A DNA stretch of 64,000 bases. Source: Labilithrix sp. GTDB taxonomy: Bacteria > Myxococcota_A > Polyangia > Polyangiales > Polyangiaceae. The stretch lies in assembly GCA_019637105.1 (NCBI GenBank), contig JAHBWF010000008.1:37226-101225 (forward strand). The letters run 5' to 3'. This document shows, in pieces, positions 2,721 to 12,056 of the stretch. The position numbers and the translations under genes were made by a program. Position 1 is the stretch's first letter, and every line of letters begins with the position of its first letter. Below the pieces are notes generated by a model. That model searched no databases and was not told the origin of the DNA. It saw only the letters and a program-made list of their open reading frames with translations.

Positions 2721-3485
2721 ATGACGATGACGACCCTCGCCGCGAAGCTCAGCACCCACGCCCAGGCGGAGCTCGTCGAGCTCGGCCGCGCCGCAGAGCG
2801 AGCGTCGCGCGGCCGGCCGGCGCCGGCCGAGGTGGGGCTCAAGGGCCGCTCCCCCGTCGCCGAGGACGAGGTCGTCGTGATCGTCCTGAGCCGCCACGCC
2901 GCGCTGGTGAGCCGCGTGACCGTCAAGGGGCGGGCGCTCGACGTCCGCGAGCTCCGCCGCCGCCTCGCCGGGGCCGAGGTCGCGGTGGAGCGCTTCGTCG
3001 ACGCGCACCGGGACGTCGCCCCGCCGCGGCTCGCGCGCAGCGAGGCGGCGATGCTCGACGACGCCGGCTTCGTCGACGCGACGACCGAGGCCGGCGGCGC
3101 GCTCGAGCGGTCCCGCATCGAGCTCGACATCCTGCTCGCCGAGAGCCTCACGCTCGAGGAGGCCGCCCGCGCGCTCGCGGTGAGCACCGGCCGCCTCCGC
3201 CAGCGGCTCGGGCCGACGTCGCGCACGCTCTACGGGATCAAGGACGGGCGGGCGTGGCGCATCCCGAAGTTCCAGTTCGCGTCGAAGGGCAAGCTGGTCC
3301 GCGGGATCGAGCGCGTCCTGCCGCGCCTCCGGCCGGACGCCCACCCGCTCGCCGTCGCGGCCTGGTTCTCGACCCCGCATCAAGACCTCGTCGTCGGCGA
3401 CCGTGAGGAGCGCGTCACTCCGCGCGCGTGGCTCCTCGCGGGGCGCGATCCGAACGTCGTGGCCGAGCTCGCCGAGGAAGTCTGA
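2721..3485 (+). CDS. Antitoxin-like protein partnered with a RES toxin (Xre/MbcA/ParS-type, long form)
   Basis: 254 residues, beginning MTMTTLAAKL. The likely helix-turn-helix or recognition region is the central LTLEEAARALAVSTGRLRQR, followed by RTLYGIKDGRAWRIPKFQF, which reads like an excisionase/MerR-type wing. The C-terminal ~70 residues (VLPRLRPDAHPLAVAAWFSTPHQDL, then TPRAWLLAGRDPNVVAELAEE) match the conserved C-terminal region of MbcA/Xre/ParS antitoxins, which fits over the active site of the partner toxin. The N-terminal ~110 residues are extra compared with the usual 120-160-residue antitoxins. The toxin starts 3 bp downstream, so the two are co-translated. The family call rests mainly on the C-terminal pattern and on the neighbour. 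Confidence 0.72.
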   Translation: MTMTTLAAKLSTHAQAELVELGRAAERASRGRPAPAEVGLKGRSPVAEDEVVVIVLSRHAALVSRVTVKGRALDVRELRRRLAGAEVAVERFVDAHRDVAPPRLARSEAAMLDDAGFVDATTEAGGALERSRIELDILLAESLTLEEAARALAVSTGRLRQRLGPTSRTLYGIKDGRAWRIPKFQFASKGKLVRGIERVLPRLRPDAHPLAVAAWFSTPHQDLVVGDREERVTPRAWLLAGRDPNVVAELAEEV

Positions 3486-3488
3486 CGG

Positions 3489-4103
3489 GTGGCGAAGCTC
3501 CCCGAGCCGCCCCGGCCGCTCACCACGCCTCCCGAGACGAAGCTCCTCCTCGCGGGCGCCCGCCTCTGGCGCATCTACATGCGCGGCGGCCGGCGCCCGA
3601 CGAGCTTCGGCGACTTCCGCGCGTTCGGCCCGACGAGCTCGCGCTTCGACCATCACGACACGCCGCCGCGCGTGCAGGCGAAGGGCATCCTCTACGCCGC
3701 CGACGATCCGACGACGTGCCTGGCGGAGGCGTTCCAGGCGACGCGCGTGATCGATCGACACGCGGGCGAGCCGTGGCTCGTCGGCTTCGAGACGGCGCGC
3801 GACCTGACGCTCCTCGACCTGACCGGCGCGTGGCCGACGCGCGCCGGCGCGTCGATGGCGATCAACTCGGGCCCGCGGCCTCGGGCGCGCCGCTGGTCGC
3901 AGGCGATCTACGACGCGTACGCGGGCGTCGAGGGGCTCTGGTACGCCTCGTCGATGCACGCCAACCGACCGTCGGTCGCCCTCTACGAGCGCGCCGAGGC
4001 GGCGGTGCCGAAGACGCCGTCGTTCCACCGCGCGCTGTCGGATCCGGCGATCCGCGGGCGGATCGACGCGGCCGCGATGCGCCTCGGCTACCGGCTCGTC
4101 TGA
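3489..4103 (+). CDS. RES domain toxin (NAD+-degrading family)
   Basis: 204 residues with a GTG start just after the antitoxin stop. The RES signature is complete: Arg28 in LWRIY, a second Arg/Ser/Phe block (FGPTSSRFD), ILYAADDPTTCLAEAF containing Tyr69 and Glu80, and LWYASSMHANRPSVALYE containing Ser154/155. Family members (MbcT, RES_Pp) fold like ADP-ribosyltransferases and destroy NAD+ when not held by their antitoxin. Length and gene order (antitoxin first, toxin second) match type II RES-Xre systems. Nothing looks missing, so the toxin is probably active. Confidence 0.88.
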   Translation: MAKLPEPPRPLTTPPETKLLLAGARLWRIYMRGGRRPTSFGDFRAFGPTSSRFDHHDTPPRVQAKGILYAADDPTTCLAEAFQATRVIDRHAGEPWLVGFETARDLTLLDLTGAWPTRAGASMAINSGPRPRARRWSQAIYDAYAGVEGLWYASSMHANRPSVALYERAEAAVPKTPSFHRALSDPAIRGRIDAAAMRLGYRLV

Positions 4104-4240: not shown

Positions 4241-5872
4241 ATGAGCCCCGCGTTCGTCACAGAGTGGCTGAACTTGGCCGTCCGCTGGATCCACGTCATC
4301 GCCGGGATCATGTGGATCGGCAGCTCGCTGTTCTTCAACTGGCTCGACGCCAGGATCGAGAAGAACGAGCGCACCAAGGAGAAGGGCATCGAGGGCGAGC
4401 TCTGGATGGTCCACTCCGGCGGCTTCTACGACGTCGAGAAGACGCTCGTCGCGCCCAAGGTGATGCCCAAGCACCTCCACTGGTTCAAGTGGGAGGCGAT
4501 GTTCACGATGCTCTCGGGCTGGCTCCTGCTCGACATCGTGTTCTTCCAGGGCGGCGCCGTCACGCTCGTCGATCCGAACGTCTCCGACCTCTCTCCCGCC
4601 GCCGCGGTCGCGCTGTCGATCGGCGTGCTCGTCGCGTCGTGGTTCGTCTACGACCTGCTCTGGCGCTCTCCCTTGACGGCGAACGTGCCCGTCGGCGCGG
4701 CGATCACCTACGGCCTCGTCGTCGGCGTCCTGTTCTTCCTCGCCCACAAGGTCAGCGGACGCGCCGCGTTCCTCCTGACGGGCGGGATGATGGGCACGTG
4801 GATGGCGACCAACGTCTGGGTGCACATCATCCCCGCGCAGAAGGGCCTGGTGAAGGCCGTCACCGAGGGCCGGAAGCCGGACGAGAAGCTCGCCAAGCAC
4901 GCCAAGACGCGCTCGCGGCACAACAACTACATGACCTATCCCGTGGTGCTCATCATGTTGAGCAACCACTTCCCCGGCGTCTACGGCCACCCGCACAACT
5001 GGGTCATCCTCGCCGGGCTCATCGTCCTCGGCGCCTCCATCCGCCACCTCCAGAACGTCAAGAAGGAGCTCGCGCCGGGGATCCTCGTCGCGGTCCTCCT
5101 GGTGCTCCTGACGATCGCGCACTCGTCGCTCACCACGGCCCCGACGAGCGCGGGCGGCGCCGGCGCCGATCCGACCGCGCCGCTCACGCCGACGACGCCC
5201 CAGACGCAGGGCGGCCCGGAGAAGGTCGCCAACGAGTCGGTGGTCGGCGTCGTGAAGGGCACGGTGAACCTCGAGGGGACGCCGCCGCCGAACAAGGTCC
5301 TCAACGTCGGGACGTGCACGAGCGACGTCCAGGGTCCCGTCACCTCGGACGCCGTCCTCTCGAAGGACGGGAAGCTCCAGAACGCGTTCGTCTGGATCAA
5401 GATCGGGCTCGACGCCTACAAGGGCCCGGCCGCCCCCGGCGATCCCGTCGTCATCGACCAGAAGGGCTGCATGTACAAGCCCCACGTCGTCGGCGCTCGC
5501 GTCGGGCAGAAGGTCGTCTTCCTCAACAGCGATCCGGTCCTGCACAACGTGCGGGCGGTCGCGGAGACGAACGCGACCTTCAACGACATGATGCCGACGA
5601 AGGACATGCGCCTCGAGAAGGTCTTCGACAAGACCGAGGTCCCCGTCCGCGCGAAGTGCGACGTCCACCCCTGGATGAGCGCGTTCGTCGGCGTCGTCCC
5701 CCACCCGTTCTACGCGGTGAGCGGCGAGGCCGGCGAGTTCTCGCTCGTGAACGTGCCGGAGGGGACGTACGAGATCGAGGCGTGGCACGAGGTCTTCGGC
5801 CGTCAGACCCAGAAGATCACGGTCAAGGCCCGCGAGACCGCGCCGGTCTCGCTGACCTTCCGGGTCGAGTAG
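4241..5872 (+). CDS. puuD: PuuD-type membrane urate hydroxylase fused to a C-terminal cupredoxin
   Basis: 543 residues. Residues 1-300 are a polytopic membrane domain of the PuuD/DUF989 urate hydroxylase family, with WIHVIAGIMWIGSSLFFNWLD, WMVHSGGFYDVEK, HWFKWEAMFTMLSGW and HNNYMTYPVVLIMLSNHF. Known PuuD proteins oxidise urate to 5-hydroxyisourate and pass electrons to a C-terminal cytochrome c. Here no CxxCH is present. After a Pro/Thr linker (300-330) comes a plastocyanin-like domain with candidate copper ligands His435 (DPVLHNV), Cys473, His476 and Met479 (CDVHPWM). A short carboxypeptidase-regulatory-like beta sandwich ends the protein (about 490-543). The downstream uraH and alc-uraD genes process the product, which supports the urate assignment. 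A blue copper site replacing the heme is an inference from these ligands. Confidence 0.88.
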   Translation: MSPAFVTEWLNLAVRWIHVIAGIMWIGSSLFFNWLDARIEKNERTKEKGIEGELWMVHSGGFYDVEKTLVAPKVMPKHLHWFKWEAMFTMLSGWLLLDIVFFQGGAVTLVDPNVSDLSPAAAVALSIGVLVASWFVYDLLWRSPLTANVPVGAAITYGLVVGVLFFLAHKVSGRAAFLLTGGMMGTWMATNVWVHIIPAQKGLVKAVTEGRKPDEKLAKHAKTRSRHNNYMTYPVVLIMLSNHFPGVYGHPHNWVILAGLIVLGASIRHLQNVKKELAPGILVAVLLVLLTIAHSSLTTAPTSAGGAGADPTAPLTPTTPQTQGGPEKVANESVVGVVKGTVNLEGTPPPNKVLNVGTCTSDVQGPVTSDAVLSKDGKLQNAFVWIKIGLDAYKGPAAPGDPVVIDQKGCMYKPHVVGARVGQKVVFLNSDPVLHNVRAVAETNATFNDMMPTKDMRLEKVFDKTEVPVRAKCDVHPWMSAFVGVVPHPFYAVSGEAGEFSLVNVPEGTYEIEAWHEVFGRQTQKITVKARETAPVSLTFRVE

Positions 5873-5914
5873 ACCTTCCCGCGGGCCGTGGGCGACCTGC
5901 TATCGTCGAGCTCG

Positions 5915-6784
5915 GTGAGCCGTCGCGCGCGATCGAGCCCGGGCTTTCTCACGGCGGCGCTGCTCGCCGTCGCGGCGCCGGCGTGCTCGCTCCTGTTCGC
6001 GACCGACCTCGACGGCGCGCGCGGCGCGGCGGACCCCGACGCCGAAGCCGCCGAGGCGGCCGCCGACGCTCTGACCGACGGCGAGCGCGACGACGTCGCC
6101 CCGCGCGACGGCGGCGACGGCGGCGACGCCGACGCGGGCTCGCGAGGGTGCGCGTCGTACGATCCGGCTCCCGACTTCTGCGAGGACTTCGACGACGGGC
6201 CGCTCGCGCGCGGCTGGACCAAGCTCCAGGAGCAGAGCGGGACGCTCGCGTTCGACCCGCTCGCCTACTCGCCGCCGCGGTCGGGCCGCGCCAACCTGAA
6301 CGATGCGCCGAGCTGCTCGTACACGCGCTTCGAGCGGAGCATCTCCGGCGTCGGGTCGAAGCGCGTCGAGGTCCGCGCGCAGCTCCGCCCCACGGGGCCC
6401 TGGAGCCGCACCTTCACGCTCTTCACCGTGCACATCCGGTCGTGCGCCGTCCTCTTCTACGTCCACCCGAACGGCGCCGGGGCGATCGACAGCTCCTCGA
6501 TCAACATCCAGTCGGGCGACCCGTTGACGAACGACGAGCGCGACGTCAAGGGCGGCCCCAGGCTGAACGAGTGGACCGACCTCTGGTTCGAGGCCGTCCC
6601 GAACGCGACGAGCGGGAGCTCCCTCACGATCTCGTTCCACCACGAAGACGGCTCCGTCGAGGAGACGACCGTGAACGCGCCGCAGTGCCGGGTGGGTGGC
6701 GACCTCTTCGTCGCCCCGGGCTTCCACTGCGAGGACGGCACCGGCGAGGTCCGCTACGACGACGTCCGCGCCTACTGGGAGTAG
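5915..6784 (+). CDS. Secreted lipoprotein with a concanavalin/LamG-like domain
   Basis: 289 residues from a GTG at 5915; an in-frame GTG at 5888 is possible but puts extra polar residues before the leader. The signal SRRARSSPGFLTAALLAVAAPAC ends in a weak lipobox, and a long Asp/Ala-rich linker (about 30-85) follows. The globular part begins CASYDPAPDFCEDFDDG and runs GWTKLQEQSGTLAF to the end, ending GEVRYDDVRAYWE. It has paired Cys residues and the beta-sandwich pattern of LamG/glucanase-like carbohydrate-binding domains. These are common surface lipoproteins in Polyangiales, and the ligand is unknown. Placement between puuD and uraH looks incidental. It converges on uraH with only 6 bp between stops. 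Confidence 0.7.
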   Translation: MSRRARSSPGFLTAALLAVAAPACSLLFATDLDGARGAADPDAEAAEAAADALTDGERDDVAPRDGGDGGDADAGSRGCASYDPAPDFCEDFDDGPLARGWTKLQEQSGTLAFDPLAYSPPRSGRANLNDAPSCSYTRFERSISGVGSKRVEVRAQLRPTGPWSRTFTLFTVHIRSCAVLFYVHPNGAGAIDSSSINIQSGDPLTNDERDVKGGPRLNEWTDLWFEAVPNATSGSSLTISFHHEDGSVEETTVNAPQCRVGGDLFVAPGFHCEDGTGEVRYDDVRAYWE

Positions 6785-6790
6785 CGCCGC

Positions 6791-7129
6791 TCAGCTGCCG
6801 CGGTACGTCGAGTAGCCGTGCGCGCTCAGGAGGAGCGGCACGTGGTAGTGCGCGGCGGCGTCGCGGACGACGAACACGACGCTCGCCTCGGGGTAGAAGC
6901 CCTCGACGCCCTGCGCCGCGAAGTAGGCGCCGGTGTCGAACGTGACGCGGTACGTGCCGCTCGTGAGCTCCCCCTCCGGGACGAGCTCCTTCACGCGGCC
7001 GTCGGCGTCGGTCTCGGCCCGCCGGACCGGCGCGAAGACGTCGCCCTCCTTCTTCTCGAGCGCGACGGGCACGCCGGCGGCCGGGCGCCCGCGGTGGATG
7101 TCGAGCACGTGCGTCGAAACGGATTTCAT
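6791..7129 (-). CDS. uraH: 5-hydroxyisourate hydrolase
   Basis: 112 residues, the normal length for transthyretin-like HIU hydrolases. The N-terminus is STHVLDIHRGRPAAGVPV, whose first His is an active-site residue. The middle has RVTFDTGAYF, and the protein ends YHVPLLLSAHGYSTYRGS; the C-terminal YRGS tetrapeptide is the diagnostic signature of the family. The enzyme opens the ring of 5-hydroxyisourate to OHCU, the step after urate oxidation. Its ATG overlaps the stop of the upstream alc-uraD gene (ATGA), so the two are translationally coupled. Confidence 0.95.
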   Translation of the reverse strand: MKSVSTHVLDIHRGRPAAGVPVALEKKEGDVFAPVRRAETDADGRVKELVPEGELTSGTYRVTFDTGAYFAAQGVEGFYPEASVVFVVRDAAAHYHVPLLLSAHGYSTYRGS

Positions 7130-8685
7130 CCCTTCACCATCTTCTCGAGCCTGAGCTCGGTGATCTTGCGTTGCTCCTCGGCGGCGCGGCGGAGCTCGGA
7201 CTCGGGATCCGCGGTCATGCGCTCCTTCGCGATCGCGAGCATCTCCTCGGCGGACTTGCCCGTCGCGCACACGATGTAGATGCGGCCGAACCGCGCCTCG
7301 TAGGCCTCGTTCACCTCGCGGAGCTCGTCCAGCGCCGCCCGGCTCGCGCCCTCGACCCTGGCTTGCTCCTTGGCCGACCAGGCGCGCGCGACCTCGCCCT
7401 GGGGACCGTCGGCCTTCTTCTCGCCGATGCGCGGGTGCGCCGCGAAGGCCTCGTCCCAGTCGGCGGCGGCGAGCGCGCTCCAGCGATCGGCGGCGGCCTC
7501 CTTCAGGGCGTCGAGGCTCGCGAAGGACGCGGCGTTCGCCCTACGCTCGGCGACCATCGCGCGGACCCACGCGCGCGAGCCGCAGCACGCGAGCAGCGCC
7601 GCCTCGAGCTCGGGCTCCGGCATCGCGCGGACGTAGCGCATCCCCGAGCGCTCGCGCCCGGCTTCGCTCGCGACGCCGAGGAGACGGAGCCGGCTGACGC
7701 CGCCGTCGGGCCAGATGCGGAGCCGCGCGTGGGTCGCGTCGCCGGCGGCGAGGAGCGCGTCCTCGAACACGTGGGACGTGTGCGGCTGGAGGCTCGTCTT
7801 CGCGAGGAGCGGCCGCCAGCCGTCGTCCTTCGCGCCGTCGGGATCGCCGCCGGGGGACGTCGCGACGTCGAGCGCGCACGCGTCGGGGGCGTTGCCCTTG
7901 AAGTGGAGGGTGTCGACGATCGCGCGCTCGATCGCGCCCTCGGTCGCGAGGCGCACGACGACCCAGTCGGGGCCGGGGCGACGCGAGCGCTTCGTCTCCC
8001 AGCCGTCGCCCATGTTCACGCCGCGGCCGGGCATGATGAGGTTGTGCCGCGAGCCGAAGAACATGTCGTTGCACGCGACGACGAGCCCGCCGTGCTCGGC
8101 GGCGGCGAGATCGACGAGCTGCGGGCGGTCGCGCCGGCCCGCCCAGCGCGCGCCCGGCATCACGTCGCCGTGGACGCGCAGGCGCGCGACGCCGCCGTCG
8201 GGGTAGATGTTGAAGCGGAGGTGCGTGAAGCGCTCGGGGACGTCGATCTCGAACCGGTTCTTCGAGTCGCCGGCGAGCTCCGAGCGCGGGAGGATCTCGG
8301 TCCAGCGGACGTCGCTCGAGAGGAGCTCCGCGACGTCCGGGTGACCGTCGATGCTCGCGCCCTCGATCGAGCACGCCTTGGGGTAGTTGCCCTTGAAGTG
8401 CGCGGTGTCGACGACGAATCCGCGCACCACGCCCGAGAGGCCGAGGCGGATGATGCACGAGTCGTGCTCCGGATACGCGCGCGTCGACTCGGCGTACTGG
8501 CGCTTTCGGCGTGACTCCCAGCCGTCCATCCACTTGCCGCGGTCGGTGTACTTGCCCTCGATGAAGACGGCCTCTTGCGGCTTGAGGAGGTTCTCCTTCT
8601 CCGCGAAGAAGTCGTCCGTCGCCCAGAGGACGGAGCCGCCGAGGCGCTCCGCCGCGAGATCGATGAGCTCGATGAAGTCCGCCAT
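7126..8685 (-). CDS. alc-uraD: Bifunctional allantoicase / OHCU decarboxylase fusion
   Basis: 519 residues from the ATG at 8685. Residues 1-345 hold the two tandem jelly-roll repeats of allantoicase: VLWATDDFFAEKENLLKP and GKWMDGWESRRKR, then a second copy VVACNDMFFGSRHNLIMPG and MGDGWETKRSRR. Each repeat carries an NIYPDGGVARLR or RIWPDGGVSRLR element. Residues 355-519 are a complete UraD: AAHPRIGEKK at 416-425 carries the catalytic His motif, followed by WSAKEQARVEG. OHCU decarboxylase makes S-allantoin and allantoicase splits allantoate to ureidoglycolate and urea, so the fused steps are not consecutive; allantoinase (10683-12056) works between them. It is probably co-transcribed with uraH. 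Confidence 0.93.
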   Translation of the reverse strand: MADFIELIDLAAERLGGSVLWATDDFFAEKENLLKPQEAVFIEGKYTDRGKWMDGWESRRKRQYAESTRAYPEHDSCIIRLGLSGVVRGFVVDTAHFKGNYPKACSIEGASIDGHPDVAELLSSDVRWTEILPRSELAGDSKNRFEIDVPERFTHLRFNIYPDGGVARLRVHGDVMPGARWAGRRDRPQLVDLAAAEHGGLVVACNDMFFGSRHNLIMPGRGVNMGDGWETKRSRRPGPDWVVVRLATEGAIERAIVDTLHFKGNAPDACALDVATSPGGDPDGAKDDGWRPLLAKTSLQPHTSHVFEDALLAAGDATHARLRIWPDGGVSRLRLLGVASEAGRERSGMRYVRAMPEPELEAALLACCGSRAWVRAMVAERRANAASFASLDALKEAAADRWSALAAADWDEAFAAHPRIGEKKADGPQGEVARAWSAKEQARVEGASRAALDELREVNEAYEARFGRIYIVCATGKSAEEMLAIAKERMTADPESELRRAAEEQRKITELRLEKMVKG

Positions 8686-8873: not shown

Positions 8874-10532
8874 TCAATCCGCGACGATCACGCGGTTCCG
8901 GCCCTCGCGCTTCGCGCGGTAGAGGGCGGCGTCGGCGAGGCGGATGACGTCGTCGGACGTCGCTCCGTGCCTCGGGAACGCGGCGACGCCGATCGACAGC
9001 GTCACCGGCCCGATGTTCCGCCCCTCGTGCGTCACGTCCATCTGCGCGACCGCCTCGCGGATCTCCTCGGCGCGCTTGGCGGCGTCCTCGAGCGAGGAGC
9101 TCGGCATCACGAGCGCGAGCTCCTCGCCGCCCATGCGGCTGGCCACGTCGGCGCCGCGCGTCTTCTTGCGGAGGAGGGCGCCGATCGACGCGAGCACGTG
9201 ATCGCCCGCCTGATGGCCGAACGAGTCGTTGAACCTCTTGAAGAAGTCGACGTCCATCACGAGCACGCCGATCGTGCTCGACTCGCGCTCGGCGCGGCGG
9301 ATCTCGCGCTCGAGCGTCTCGTCGGTGTAGCGGCGGTTGTAGAGGCCGGTCAGCGCGTCGCGGATCGACTGGTTGCGCAGGGTCTCGCGGAGGCGCAGGT
9401 TCGACAGCGCCATCCCGACCTGCTCGCCGACGACCATCGCGCGGCGCTGGATCGGCTCGGCGTCGCCGATCTCGGCGACGTGCAGCGTGCCGATGACGTG
9501 GCCGTGGGCGAGCAGGGGCAGACACATCATGGCGGAGTGCGCCGCGCTCGAGTGCGCGCAGCGCACGCCGGCGTCCCCCTGCTCCGAGCGGTGCGGCTTG
9601 CCGCGCCGGAGCGCCCAGCAGTCGTCCGGCGCGAAGGTCTTGCCCTCGAGGACGGACTCCTTCCCCCACTCGACCTCGGCCTCGAGGAGGTTCTGCGACT
9701 CGTTGAGGATGCAGATCGCCCCCGACTCGTCGAGGAAGAACTGCGGCGCGAGGCGGCCGACGACCTCGGTCGCCTCGGCCACCGAGCGGCACGCGCTCAA
9801 GAGCTCCCCCATCTGCAGCATGAGGGCGGTCTCGCGGACGAGCTCGCGGAGGCGCGCGCCCTGCTCCTCGCTCGCGCGCTCCGCGCGGCGGCGGTTCTTC
9901 ACCTCGCCGTAGACGAGGAGGAACGCGGCGGCGACCAGGCTGATGCTCGCGAAGATGCCGAGCGGCGAGATCACGCGGATGCGTCGGATGCGCTCCTCTC
10001 GCGCGCTGCTCCGCCGATCGAGCAGGCGGAGCTCCTCCTGGACCATCTCGGCGGACATCGCTCGGATCTCGAGCGTGAGGTGCCGAGCCTCCGGGGCGAT
10101 CGCGCCGTCGCCCGACGTCGTGACGGCCTCGAGCCGCTCGCGGAGCAGCTCGAGCCGCCTCGAGACCTTCGGCGTGAGGAGCTCGAGCCGGCGGCGCTGG
10201 TCGGGGTTGTCCTTCACGAGCCCTCGCAGAGACCTGAGCGCCTCCTCGACCTCGCGCATCGCAGGATCGAGCTCGTCGAGCATGCCCTCGTCGCGCTTGA
10301 GCGCGTAGCCGCGGAGGCTGCTCTCGGCGACCGCGATGCCGGCGGGGAGCTTCTGCAGCTCCTCGATGACGACGTGCGTGTGCTCGACGAGCGAGGAGGC
10401 GACCTCTTGCTCGACGGTCTCGCGGTAGCTCACCCAGCCGAGCGAGACGAGCACGATGACGGCGACGACGAGGCCGACGAGGGGGAGGCGCAGCGGCGAT
10501 CGGAGCCTACGACGCAAGGCGTATCCCCTCAT
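8874..10532 (-). CDS. Membrane diguanylate cyclase (CHASE3-like / GAF / GGDEF)
   Basis: 552 residues from the ATG at 10532, which places the basic MRGYALRRRLR just before the first helix; an ATG at 10616 would add 28 charged residues. The layout is TM helix 17-35, a helical periplasmic sensor of the CHASE3 kind (36-187), TM helix 188-207, GAF domain (about 245-380) and GGDEF domain (385-552). The active-site loop is GGEEL (468-472), a functional variant. An inhibitory RxxD site (RGAD, 459-462) sits five residues before it, so product inhibition by c-di-GMP is expected. It lies between allB and alc-uraD on the same strand, with gaps of about 150 and 190 bp. Confidence 0.9.
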   Translation of the reverse strand: MRGYALRRRLRSPLRLPLVGLVVAVIVLVSLGWVSYRETVEQEVASSLVEHTHVVIEELQKLPAGIAVAESSLRGYALKRDEGMLDELDPAMREVEEALRSLRGLVKDNPDQRRRLELLTPKVSRRLELLRERLEAVTTSGDGAIAPEARHLTLEIRAMSAEMVQEELRLLDRRSSAREERIRRIRVISPLGIFASISLVAAAFLLVYGEVKNRRRAERASEEQGARLRELVRETALMLQMGELLSACRSVAEATEVVGRLAPQFFLDESGAICILNESQNLLEAEVEWGKESVLEGKTFAPDDCWALRRGKPHRSEQGDAGVRCAHSSAAHSAMMCLPLLAHGHVIGTLHVAEIGDAEPIQRRAMVVGEQVGMALSNLRLRETLRNQSIRDALTGLYNRRYTDETLEREIRRAERESSTIGVLVMDVDFFKRFNDSFGHQAGDHVLASIGALLRKKTRGADVASRMGGEELALVMPSSSLEDAAKRAEEIREAVAQMDVTHEGRNIGPVTLSIGVAAFPRHGATSDDVIRLADAALYRAKREGRNRVIVAD

Positions 10533-10624
10533 CGATCGCTCGGCCGCCAACGCTCGGTCCCTCTCTCCCCCTTTCGATCGACGATCGCCGCGCCCGGGGG
10601 AGCGCGCCTTCACCATCGACCCGA

Positions 10625-10682: not shown

Positions 10683-12056
10683 TCAGGTGCGTCGGAGCCA
10701 GCGGCCGCGTCGCGGCGCGAACGTCGGCTCCGACCGACACCGCTCGTAGATCGTCTCGCCGCGGAGGATCGTGCGGAGGGTGGTCCCTCGCAGGGCGCGC
10801 GCCTGGTACGGCGTGATCTTGTTCTTGTGCTCGAGGAGCGCGGCGTCGACGGTGAAGTCGCCGTCGGGATCCCAGACGACGAGGTCGGCGTCGAAGCCGG
10901 CGGCGATCGCGCCCTTCCTCCCGTGGACGCCGGCGAGGCGCGCGGGGGCGGCGCTCATCCACTCGACGAGGTCGCGCACGCTCCGCCCGCGCGCCCGCGC
11001 CTCGGTCCACACGGCGGCGAGGCCGAGCTGCAGCGACGAGATGCCGCCCCACGCCTTCATGAAGTCGCCGGAGCCGGAGCATTTCAGCTCGGCGGTCGAC
11101 GGCGAGTGATCGGTGACGACCTGATCGACGAGCCCCTCGCGGAGCGCGTCCCAGAGCTTCTCGCGGTTGTTCCGCTCGCGGATCGGCGGCGCGCACTTGT
11201 ACTCGGTGGCGCCGTCCGGGATCTCCTCGGCGGCGAACGTGAGGTAGTGCGGGCAGGTCTCCACGGTGAGGCGCGTCCTCTCGTCGCGCGCCCGGCGGAA
11301 GAGGCCGAGCGCGTCCGACGACGACAGGTGCACGACGTGCGCGCGCGCGCCGGTCTCGCGCGCGAGGCGGAGGACGAGCTCGATCGCGGCGTCCTCGGCG
11401 CGGCGCGGGCGCGACGCGAGGTAGGTCGCGTAGCGGCGCGGATCGAGCCCCATCGCCGCCCGCTCGCCCTCGGAGAGCGGCTCCGGCAGCTCGGCGTGGA
11501 CGAAGAGCGGCGCGTCGACGCGCGCGAGCTCCCTCATCCCGGCGCGCAGCTCGGCCTCGTGCACGTGCGAGAACTCGCCGACGCCGCTCTCGGCGAGGAA
11601 GCACTTGAACGCGACCACGCCCTCGGCGAAGAGCTCGGCGAGGCCGCCCTCGTGGTTCGACGGCACGAGCCCGCCGCAGAGCGCGACGTCGACGTGAGAC
11701 TTCTCCTCGAGCGCGCGGAGCTTCGCCGCGAGGCCGTCGAGCGTCGTGGTCGGCGGGACGCTGTTGAGCGGCATGTCGACGAGGGTCGTCACGCCGCCGG
11801 CCGCCGCGGCGCGCGTCGCGGTCTCGAACCCTTCCCAGTCGGCGCGCCCGGGATCGTTGATGTGGACGTGGGTGTCGACGAGGCCCGGGAGCAGGCACAT
11901 CGAGCCCGCGTCGATCGTCTCGACGCCCGCGGGCGCGGCCGCGAGCTCGGTGACGGCGACGATCGTCCCGCGCGCCCGGTCGACGTGCACGGCGGCGGGG
12001 CGCTCGCCGACGGGGGTGAAGACGCGCTGCCCGCGGACCACGAGATCGACGCTCAT
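10683..12056 (-). CDS. allB: Allantoinase
   Basis: 457 residues, normal for a dihydroorotase/hydantoinase-type amidohydrolase. Metal and active-site elements are all visible: DTHVHINDPGR (His63 and His65), the carbamylated lysine Lys151 in AFKCFLAESG, His187 in FVHAEL, VVHLSSSDAL, and the late VVTDHSPS. LPGLVDTHVHINDPGRADWEGF and KCAPPIRERNNREKLW are allantoinase-like rather than dihydroorotase- or dihydropyrimidinase-like. It hydrolyses allantoin to allantoate between the two activities of the alc-uraD fusion. It is transcribed leftward, probably in one run with the cyclase, alc-uraD and uraH, and diverges from ssnA. Confidence 0.93.
   Translation of the reverse strand: MSVDLVVRGQRVFTPVGERPAAVHVDRARGTIVAVTELAAAPAGVETIDAGSMCLLPGLVDTHVHINDPGRADWEGFETATRAAAAGGVTTLVDMPLNSVPPTTTLDGLAAKLRALEEKSHVDVALCGGLVPSNHEGGLAELFAEGVVAFKCFLAESGVGEFSHVHEAELRAGMRELARVDAPLFVHAELPEPLSEGERAAMGLDPRRYATYLASRPRRAEDAAIELVLRLARETGARAHVVHLSSSDALGLFRRARDERTRLTVETCPHYLTFAAEEIPDGATEYKCAPPIRERNNREKLWDALREGLVDQVVTDHSPSTAELKCSGSGDFMKAWGGISSLQLGLAAVWTEARARGRSVRDLVEWMSAAPARLAGVHGRKGAIAAGFDADLVVWDPDGDFTVDAALLEHKNKITPYQARALRGTTLRTILRGETIYERCRSEPTFAPRRGRWLRRT

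Follow-up and report, generated by a model that had tools for sequence, protein, structure and literature searches.

A PuuD-type membrane urate oxidase with a predicted cupredoxin domain at the place of the cytochrome c tail in Labilithrix sp. and other bacteria

The stretch of Labilithrix sp. DNA analyzed here (64,000 nucleotides, referred to as the window) carries at 4241..5872 on the + strand a gene for a 543-residue protein, in which a PuuD-type membrane urate oxidase domain is followed by a cupredoxin-containing C-terminal domain. The membrane domain, recognized by Pfam and in the predicted structure, corresponds to Urate_ox_N (PF06181), which covers residues 5-291 (4253..5113; E 2.7e-105) and is predicted to contain eight long helices. 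It is followed by a linker, residues 299-334 (5135..5242), of which 299-312 and 330-332 are low-confidence parts of the model, and by a beta domain spanning residues 335-543 (5243..5869), delimited by predicted structure and profile homology. A motif check of the whole protein found no CxxCH, and the cytochrome c tail of PuuD, with CxxCH and a downstream axial Met, is absent from it; PF01014 was not among its Pfam matches, and NCBIfam gave no useful match. The membrane domain and the missing CxxCH had both been proposed in a previous sequence-only reading of this gene, and are borne out by the Pfam match and the motif check.

Genes for further steps of urate catabolism are found downstream on the - strand. 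They comprise the HIU hydrolase of the next pathway step (UraH, 112 residues, 6791..7129; Transthyretin family, E 6.2e-37), its start being set at an internal methionine of a longer open reading frame (6791-7270), a single frame encoding an allantoicase fused to OHCU decarboxylase (UraD) (7126..8652; E 5.1e-96 and 3.4e-41), and an amidohydrolase recognized by Pfam (10683..12056), probably an allantoinase judging from its context. The co-occurrence of HIU hydrolase and OHCU decarboxylase with the membrane oxidase is a PuuD trait, and the assembly from which the window derives (91.5% complete) yielded one PF06181 match and no PF01014 uricase, the same PF01014 search giving matches in 2 of 14 control genomes. 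Regarding other neighbors, a CHASE3-GAF-GGDEF diguanylate cyclase (8874-10616, -), with its GAF part below its cut-off, lies between the allantoicase and allantoinase-like genes. A RES-domain gene (3489-4103, +; E 1.8e-13) closely precedes the PuuD gene and itself follows a frame without Pfam match (2721-3485, +) that may, as a guess, encode its antitoxin. Directly 3' of the PuuD gene, a 298-residue frame (5888-6784, +) also lacks a Pfam match, and its N-terminal part appears lipoprotein-like by eye.

Residues H18, H58, H80 and H243 of the membrane domain are invariant in all 60 PuuDs aligned, the three tail classes taken together (the window protein, 35 of 36 fusions, 10 tail-less and 14 of 31 heme forms, from the best 80 of 583 confirmed relatives), and the membrane core is therefore retained. 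These histidines, together with HemJ, which the PuuD membrane domain presumably resembles, led us to consider a heme b or other relay within this domain. Lys and Arg residues concentrate in loops predicted to be inside, hence the C-terminal domain is predicted to be outside. Position 179 is Leu in the window protein (codon 4775-4777) versus His in 54 of the 60; the other five without His are those of loci L043, L045 and L046, the tail-less L119 and the heme form L094.

The predicted structure of the C-terminal domain displays a cupredoxin fold, with a core at residues 402-486 (5444..5698) matching plastocyanin and amicyanin, and profile homology relates the domain to amicyanin with an E of 5.5e-7, so that the cupredoxin-like character previously ascribed to it is supported by modelling. 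All structural matches listed fall on this cupredoxin, the membrane domain being barely probed for structural relatives. Single-sequence comparison yielded weak matches, namely PDB 5fc9 (E 0.0023), the Nmar1307-type purple cupredoxin of Nitrosopumilus maritimus, whose aligned ligand loop is CxxHPWR, without the Met present here, and amicyanins (E 0.1-0.8). Copper-bind stays below the Pfam cut-off on the window protein (E 0.12); at E up to 0.01 it was found in 7 of 37 members, and Cupredoxin_1 in two. Residues 491-539 (5711..5857) form a carboxypeptidase-regulatory-like (transthyretin-like) part, PF13620, that is also under its cut-off in the window protein (28.2 bits vs 32.3) and reaches E up to 0.01 in 35 of the 37 fusions.

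The predicted copper ligands are His435 (codon 5543..5545), assigned by motif position and alignment, and, within the aligned loop Cys473-Asp-Val-His476-Pro-Trp-Met479 (5657..5677), the residues Cys473, His476 and Met479, all four standing at the positions that had been proposed. They constitute a His-Cys-His-Met set with a CxxHxxM loop, as in amicyanin-like type 1 copper sites, and such a complete set in the amicyanin arrangement is typical of electron-transfer cupredoxins. The search of PuuD homologues for cupredoxin fusions suggested by the sequence-only reading revealed recurrent fusions, and the four ligands are invariant in 37 of 37 (the window protein and 36 fusions from the best 80 of 583 relatives, the incomplete L076 being omitted). 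So are N436, P477, W478, C359 (5315..5317), C410 (5468..5470) and H488, with Cys359 and Cys410 as a possible disulfide. This invariance excludes a chance occurrence of CxxHxxM, even though the motif itself defined a fusion. Moreover, among the best 80 of 583 relatives a long heme-free tail is accompanied by CxxHxxM at every such locus except L076, whose contig ends ahead of the motif position.

The fusion had been regarded as a single odd gene. On the contrary, it proves to be a recurrent architecture of several bacterial phyla, with homologues of 90-93% identity in Labilithrix and near relatives and of 35-54% in other lineages, a recurrence that also rules out an artefact or a wrong reading frame. 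Within a sample of relatives (97 genomes, including that of the window), PF06181 was detected in 41, whose tails are cupredoxins in 11, CxxCH tails in 28 (one of them, L041, a contig-end fragment) and neither in two (L038 and L040). The genus of the window contains PF06181 in 10 of 13 genomes, nine with a cupredoxin and one, G012, with cytochrome c. This cytochrome c PuuD (L002, 1207-2412) sits on a long branch of the membrane tree and is possibly a horizontal replacement. Of 377 genomes sampled across the phylum, at least 10 have a match spanning the membrane and copper domains, and at least about 90 further genomes match the membrane part only. According to record titles, fusion carriers include Labilithrix, other Myxococcota, many Bacteriovoracaceae and Bdellovibrionales, one Acidobacteriota, one Planctomycetota and one 'Lysobacteraceae', most of the genomes being metagenome-assembled. 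The PuuD of the latter (L049, 8983-10596) falls inside a Bdellovibrionota clade, reflecting either a mislabelled bin or a transfer. The best 80 of 583 confirmed relatives comprise 37 cupredoxin tails (L076 included), 31 heme tails and 12 with neither, proportions that are no frequencies because this list, ranked by likeness to the fusion and with KCDVHPW as one of its two scan patterns, is enriched for cupredoxin members.

Urate neighbors were scored by blastp at E 1e-4 within retrieved flanks of up to 9 kb at the 37 cupredoxin loci in that list, HIU hydrolase being present at 35, allantoicase at 33, OHCU decarboxylase at 32 and allantoinase at 14. At the two loci without HIU hydrolase, L073 and L076, contigs end inside the gene, leaving one side unseen, and L073 gave no urate-gene hit in about 9 kb upstream. 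HIU hydrolase was found near 8 of the 31 heme loci and 9 of the 12 tail-less ones of the same 80, some of their contigs being short. Among the genome entries with a cupredoxin fusion, 51 in number, every one contains a single full-length PF06181 match, as does G012 (52 entries in all). The 51 represent 46 distinct genomes, since in five of them two routes led to the same coordinates (such as G425, the Labilithrix MAG ACE_MYX5, and G004, a member of the genus of the window). No PF01014 uricase was detected in any of the 46, in a search confined to that family, which is distinct from the flavin uricases HpxO and HpyO. Some fusion genomes, of Bdellovibrionota and others (loci within L048-L085), show extra partial PF06181 matches in frames of 196-275 residues; a four-helix PuuD-like gene is described for pqqAED-puuD-serC-pyrD clusters in the accessible text of PMC12423496.

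Both parts also occur as separate genes. At L038, in genome G015, a tail-less PuuD is found next to a divergent cupredoxin gene whose product has an N-terminus resembling, by eye, a lipoprotein signal, in the order allantoinase, cupredoxin, PuuD, allantoicase-OHCU decarboxylase, HIU hydrolase; the allantoicase-OHCU decarboxylase fusion (4844-6361) is the same as in the window. Its membrane part groups with those of the fused L039, L083 and L129 in the membrane tree (support 100), and its cupredoxin groups with the cupredoxins of the same three in the copper-domain tree (support 100). At the level of sequence, this split pair is the clearest sign that the membrane and copper parts would work together.

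Complete PuuDs without any tail were identified at 11 loci among the best 80 of 583 relatives (L088, L090, L093, L099, L105, L111, L113, L115, L119, L120 and L121), eight of them labelled Acidobacteriota; a twelfth, L108, is cut off by its contig end. HIU hydrolase lies near nine of the 11, the exceptions being L113 and L099, where little of the contig follows the gene. Within 3.5 kb of the 11, no gene with CxxCH turned up, some contigs ending soon, and at nine of them (all but L115 and L120) none of the nearby frames was marked as carrying CxxHxxM. A fused acceptor is thus usual, not universal. Several tail-less PuuDs in urate clusters (L090 8983-9807, L111 3445-4257, L121 8980-9792 and others) belong to Pyrinomonadaceae and other Acidobacteriota. 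A different case is that of L040 (3869-5468) and L153 (4526-6168), which encode PuuD-like proteins without the MVHSGGFY loop and His80, each directly followed by a cupredoxin gene with a lipoprotein-like signal by eye; no urate genes were found in the stretches around them, and they are perhaps related oxidases for another substrate. G056 and G212 were evaluated as split urate oxidases and rejected, their PuuD-like proteins lacking, by eye, that loop and His80; blastp with the urate proteins of the window found no urate genes in 6.3 and 8.5 kb.

The history of the tails was explored with a membrane-domain tree of 127 rows, which excluded L041, L076 and L108 (contig ends), L040 (a paralogue), L001 and L042 (copies of the window gene) and further rows with identical membrane parts. 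On these rows a single cupredoxin clade is rejected (AU p 0.00125) and a single heme clade is not (p 0.181), so that one exchange and one tail loss would suffice. Upon removal of 21 rows, long branches and near copies picked after the first tree had been seen, both monophylies are rejected (p 3.6e-6 for cupredoxin and 0.008 for heme), and the cupredoxin forms L057, L060, L068, L069 and L070 appear within a starred clade whose other members are heme forms. In the copper-domain tree, from which the incomplete L073 was omitted, 46 of 47 fused domains group (support 82) with L038, L040 and L153, three solo domains adjoining PuuD or PuuD-like genes, and stand apart from 23 other solo homologues and the fused L128. 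The copper sequences thus lean towards few origins, while more than one tail exchange is likely. A tentative extension, which we put forward as a conjecture less probable than its contrary, is that PF06181 constitutes a general oxidase module with an interchangeable periplasmic acceptor (cytochrome c, a cupredoxin either fused or as a separate lipoprotein, or no acceptor), exchanged more than once, by which urate catabolism might have been freed from cytochrome c maturation. As part of this conjecture, since L040 and L153, outside urate clusters, adjoin cupredoxin genes that group with the fused domains, the association with a cupredoxin might equal in age, or predate, that with cytochrome c.

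PuuD of Agrobacterium fabrum provides the closest reference. In the accessible text of Doniselli et al. (2015; PMC4562309), all full-length members are said to contain cytochrome c, which is called invariant and probably essential, its role as electron acceptor or superoxide scavenger being left open; the tail-less Acidobacteriota proteins contradict this ever-present cytochrome. PuuD and the window protein share the eight-helix PF06181 domain, the urate cluster, a variable linker and a C-terminal periplasmic one-electron domain, this being in PuuD a cytochrome c with CxxCH and axial Met and here a cupredoxin with His-Cys-His-Met. Classical uricase, Uox (PF01014), catalyzes the same reaction step, and is described in that source as soluble, cofactor-free and producing H2O2. 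Amicyanin (PDB 1aac, 1sf3), the acceptor of methylamine dehydrogenase (1mda), is a separate small protein, unlike the cupredoxin described here, which is attached to a membrane enzyme and embedded in a more extensive beta domain. The choice between a fused cytochrome and a fused cupredoxin, here in a urate oxidase, is already known from nitrite reductases, the class III three-domain NirK family containing both according to the available text of PMC6400189. Its examples are the enzymes of Ralstonia pickettii and Thermus scotoductus (6hbe, also a structural match of the window protein); NirK is nonetheless an unrelated enzyme that receives electrons, while the tail described here would take them from the membrane enzyme. 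A cupredoxin-tailed PuuD was not described in the literature searched, comprising the accessible portions of PMC4562309, PMC12423496, PMC11698098 and PMC12021255 among others, with subscription papers and domain-architecture databases outside that scope, and the previous statement that no such fusion was known holds to this extent.

Considering (i) the architecture, (ii) the conservation of the ligands, (iii) the predicted fold, (iv) the gene cluster, (v) the absence of PF01014, and (vi) the split relative, all of them computed here, the protein is probably a PuuD-type membrane urate oxidase that uses a type 1 copper cupredoxin as periplasmic acceptor instead of cytochrome c; from these we infer copper loading, urate activity, electron path and final acceptor. 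Urate would be oxidized at the conserved cytosolic face of the eight-helix domain, as Doniselli et al. propose for PuuD with the cytochrome outside and transfer through the membrane domain (PMC4562309, accessible text). Electrons would then cross the membrane domain to a copper at H435, C473, H476 and M479 in the tethered periplasmic domain, and pass on to a soluble carrier or terminal oxidase, while HIU would be handed to the neighboring HIU hydrolase and OHCU decarboxylase. In its position, membrane side, tether and ligands, the cupredoxin as modelled would suit the role of the cytochrome, and the copper form would presumably be independent of heme attachment. The rewiring of the electron exit to blue copper, as first proposed, is supported in part, an amicyanin-type ligand set and predicted fold replacing the cytochrome c tail at the same end, on the same predicted side and in a urate cluster, and the different terminal acceptor suggested with it would be a further possibility. 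Its supposed consequence, the avoidance of H2O2 release by the copper domain, does not follow from that domain, as the available text of PMC4562309 reports no catalase rise in wild-type A. fabrum with the cytochrome c form.

The cupredoxin might instead be an accessory, for example a superoxide scavenger as Doniselli et al. raised for cytochrome c (PMC4562309, accessible text), with the membrane domain alone oxidizing urate and electrons going elsewhere. Tail-less full-length PuuDs are consistent with this, being mostly in urate clusters (HIU hydrolase at 9 of 12 loci among the best 80 of 583, L108 being cut off). We consider it unlikely, since all copper ligands are strictly conserved and the tail is a cytochrome c or a cupredoxin in 39 of the 41 PF06181 genomes of the relatives sample and at 68 of 80 loci of the cupredoxin-enriched list of the best 80 of 583. 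The swap nonetheless only weakens it, both domains sharing one-electron transfer and both being able, in principle, to meet superoxide.

Lower still is the probability of a domain that serves to sense, store or deliver copper or another metal, or of a structural beta-sandwich without redox role. The full His-Cys-His-Met amicyanin arrangement, placed at the same protein end as the cytochrome c tail, argues against it, even if part of the domain resembles the structural carboxypeptidase-regulatory fold and the phylum sample often contains homologous domains standing alone, with no PuuD match beside them. That the membrane domain acts on a substrate other than urate seems very improbable, given HIU hydrolase at 35, allantoicase at 33 and OHCU decarboxylase at 32 of 37 fusion loci (best 80 of 583) and no PF01014 uricase in the genome of the window or the 46 fusion genomes. 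In its favor are PuuD-like relatives outside urate clusters (L040, L153) and the short forms described in the accessible text of PMC12423496.

With the acceptor role of the cupredoxin as the favored reading, the natural heme-to-copper swap, together with the split-gene and tail-less versions, makes the choice between acceptor and scavenger a runnable comparison. Urate oxidases of Bdellovibrionota, Myxococcota and other groups would escape a search that requires CxxCH. The cytochrome c PuuD could not be overexpressed in E. coli by its authors (PMC4562309, accessible text), and we would guess that a copper-tailed urate oxidase, if free of heme attachment, might express more easily. Finally, two solo copper-domain homologues, L172 and L173, lack the CxxHPWM loop and display a CxxCH motif in their open frame.
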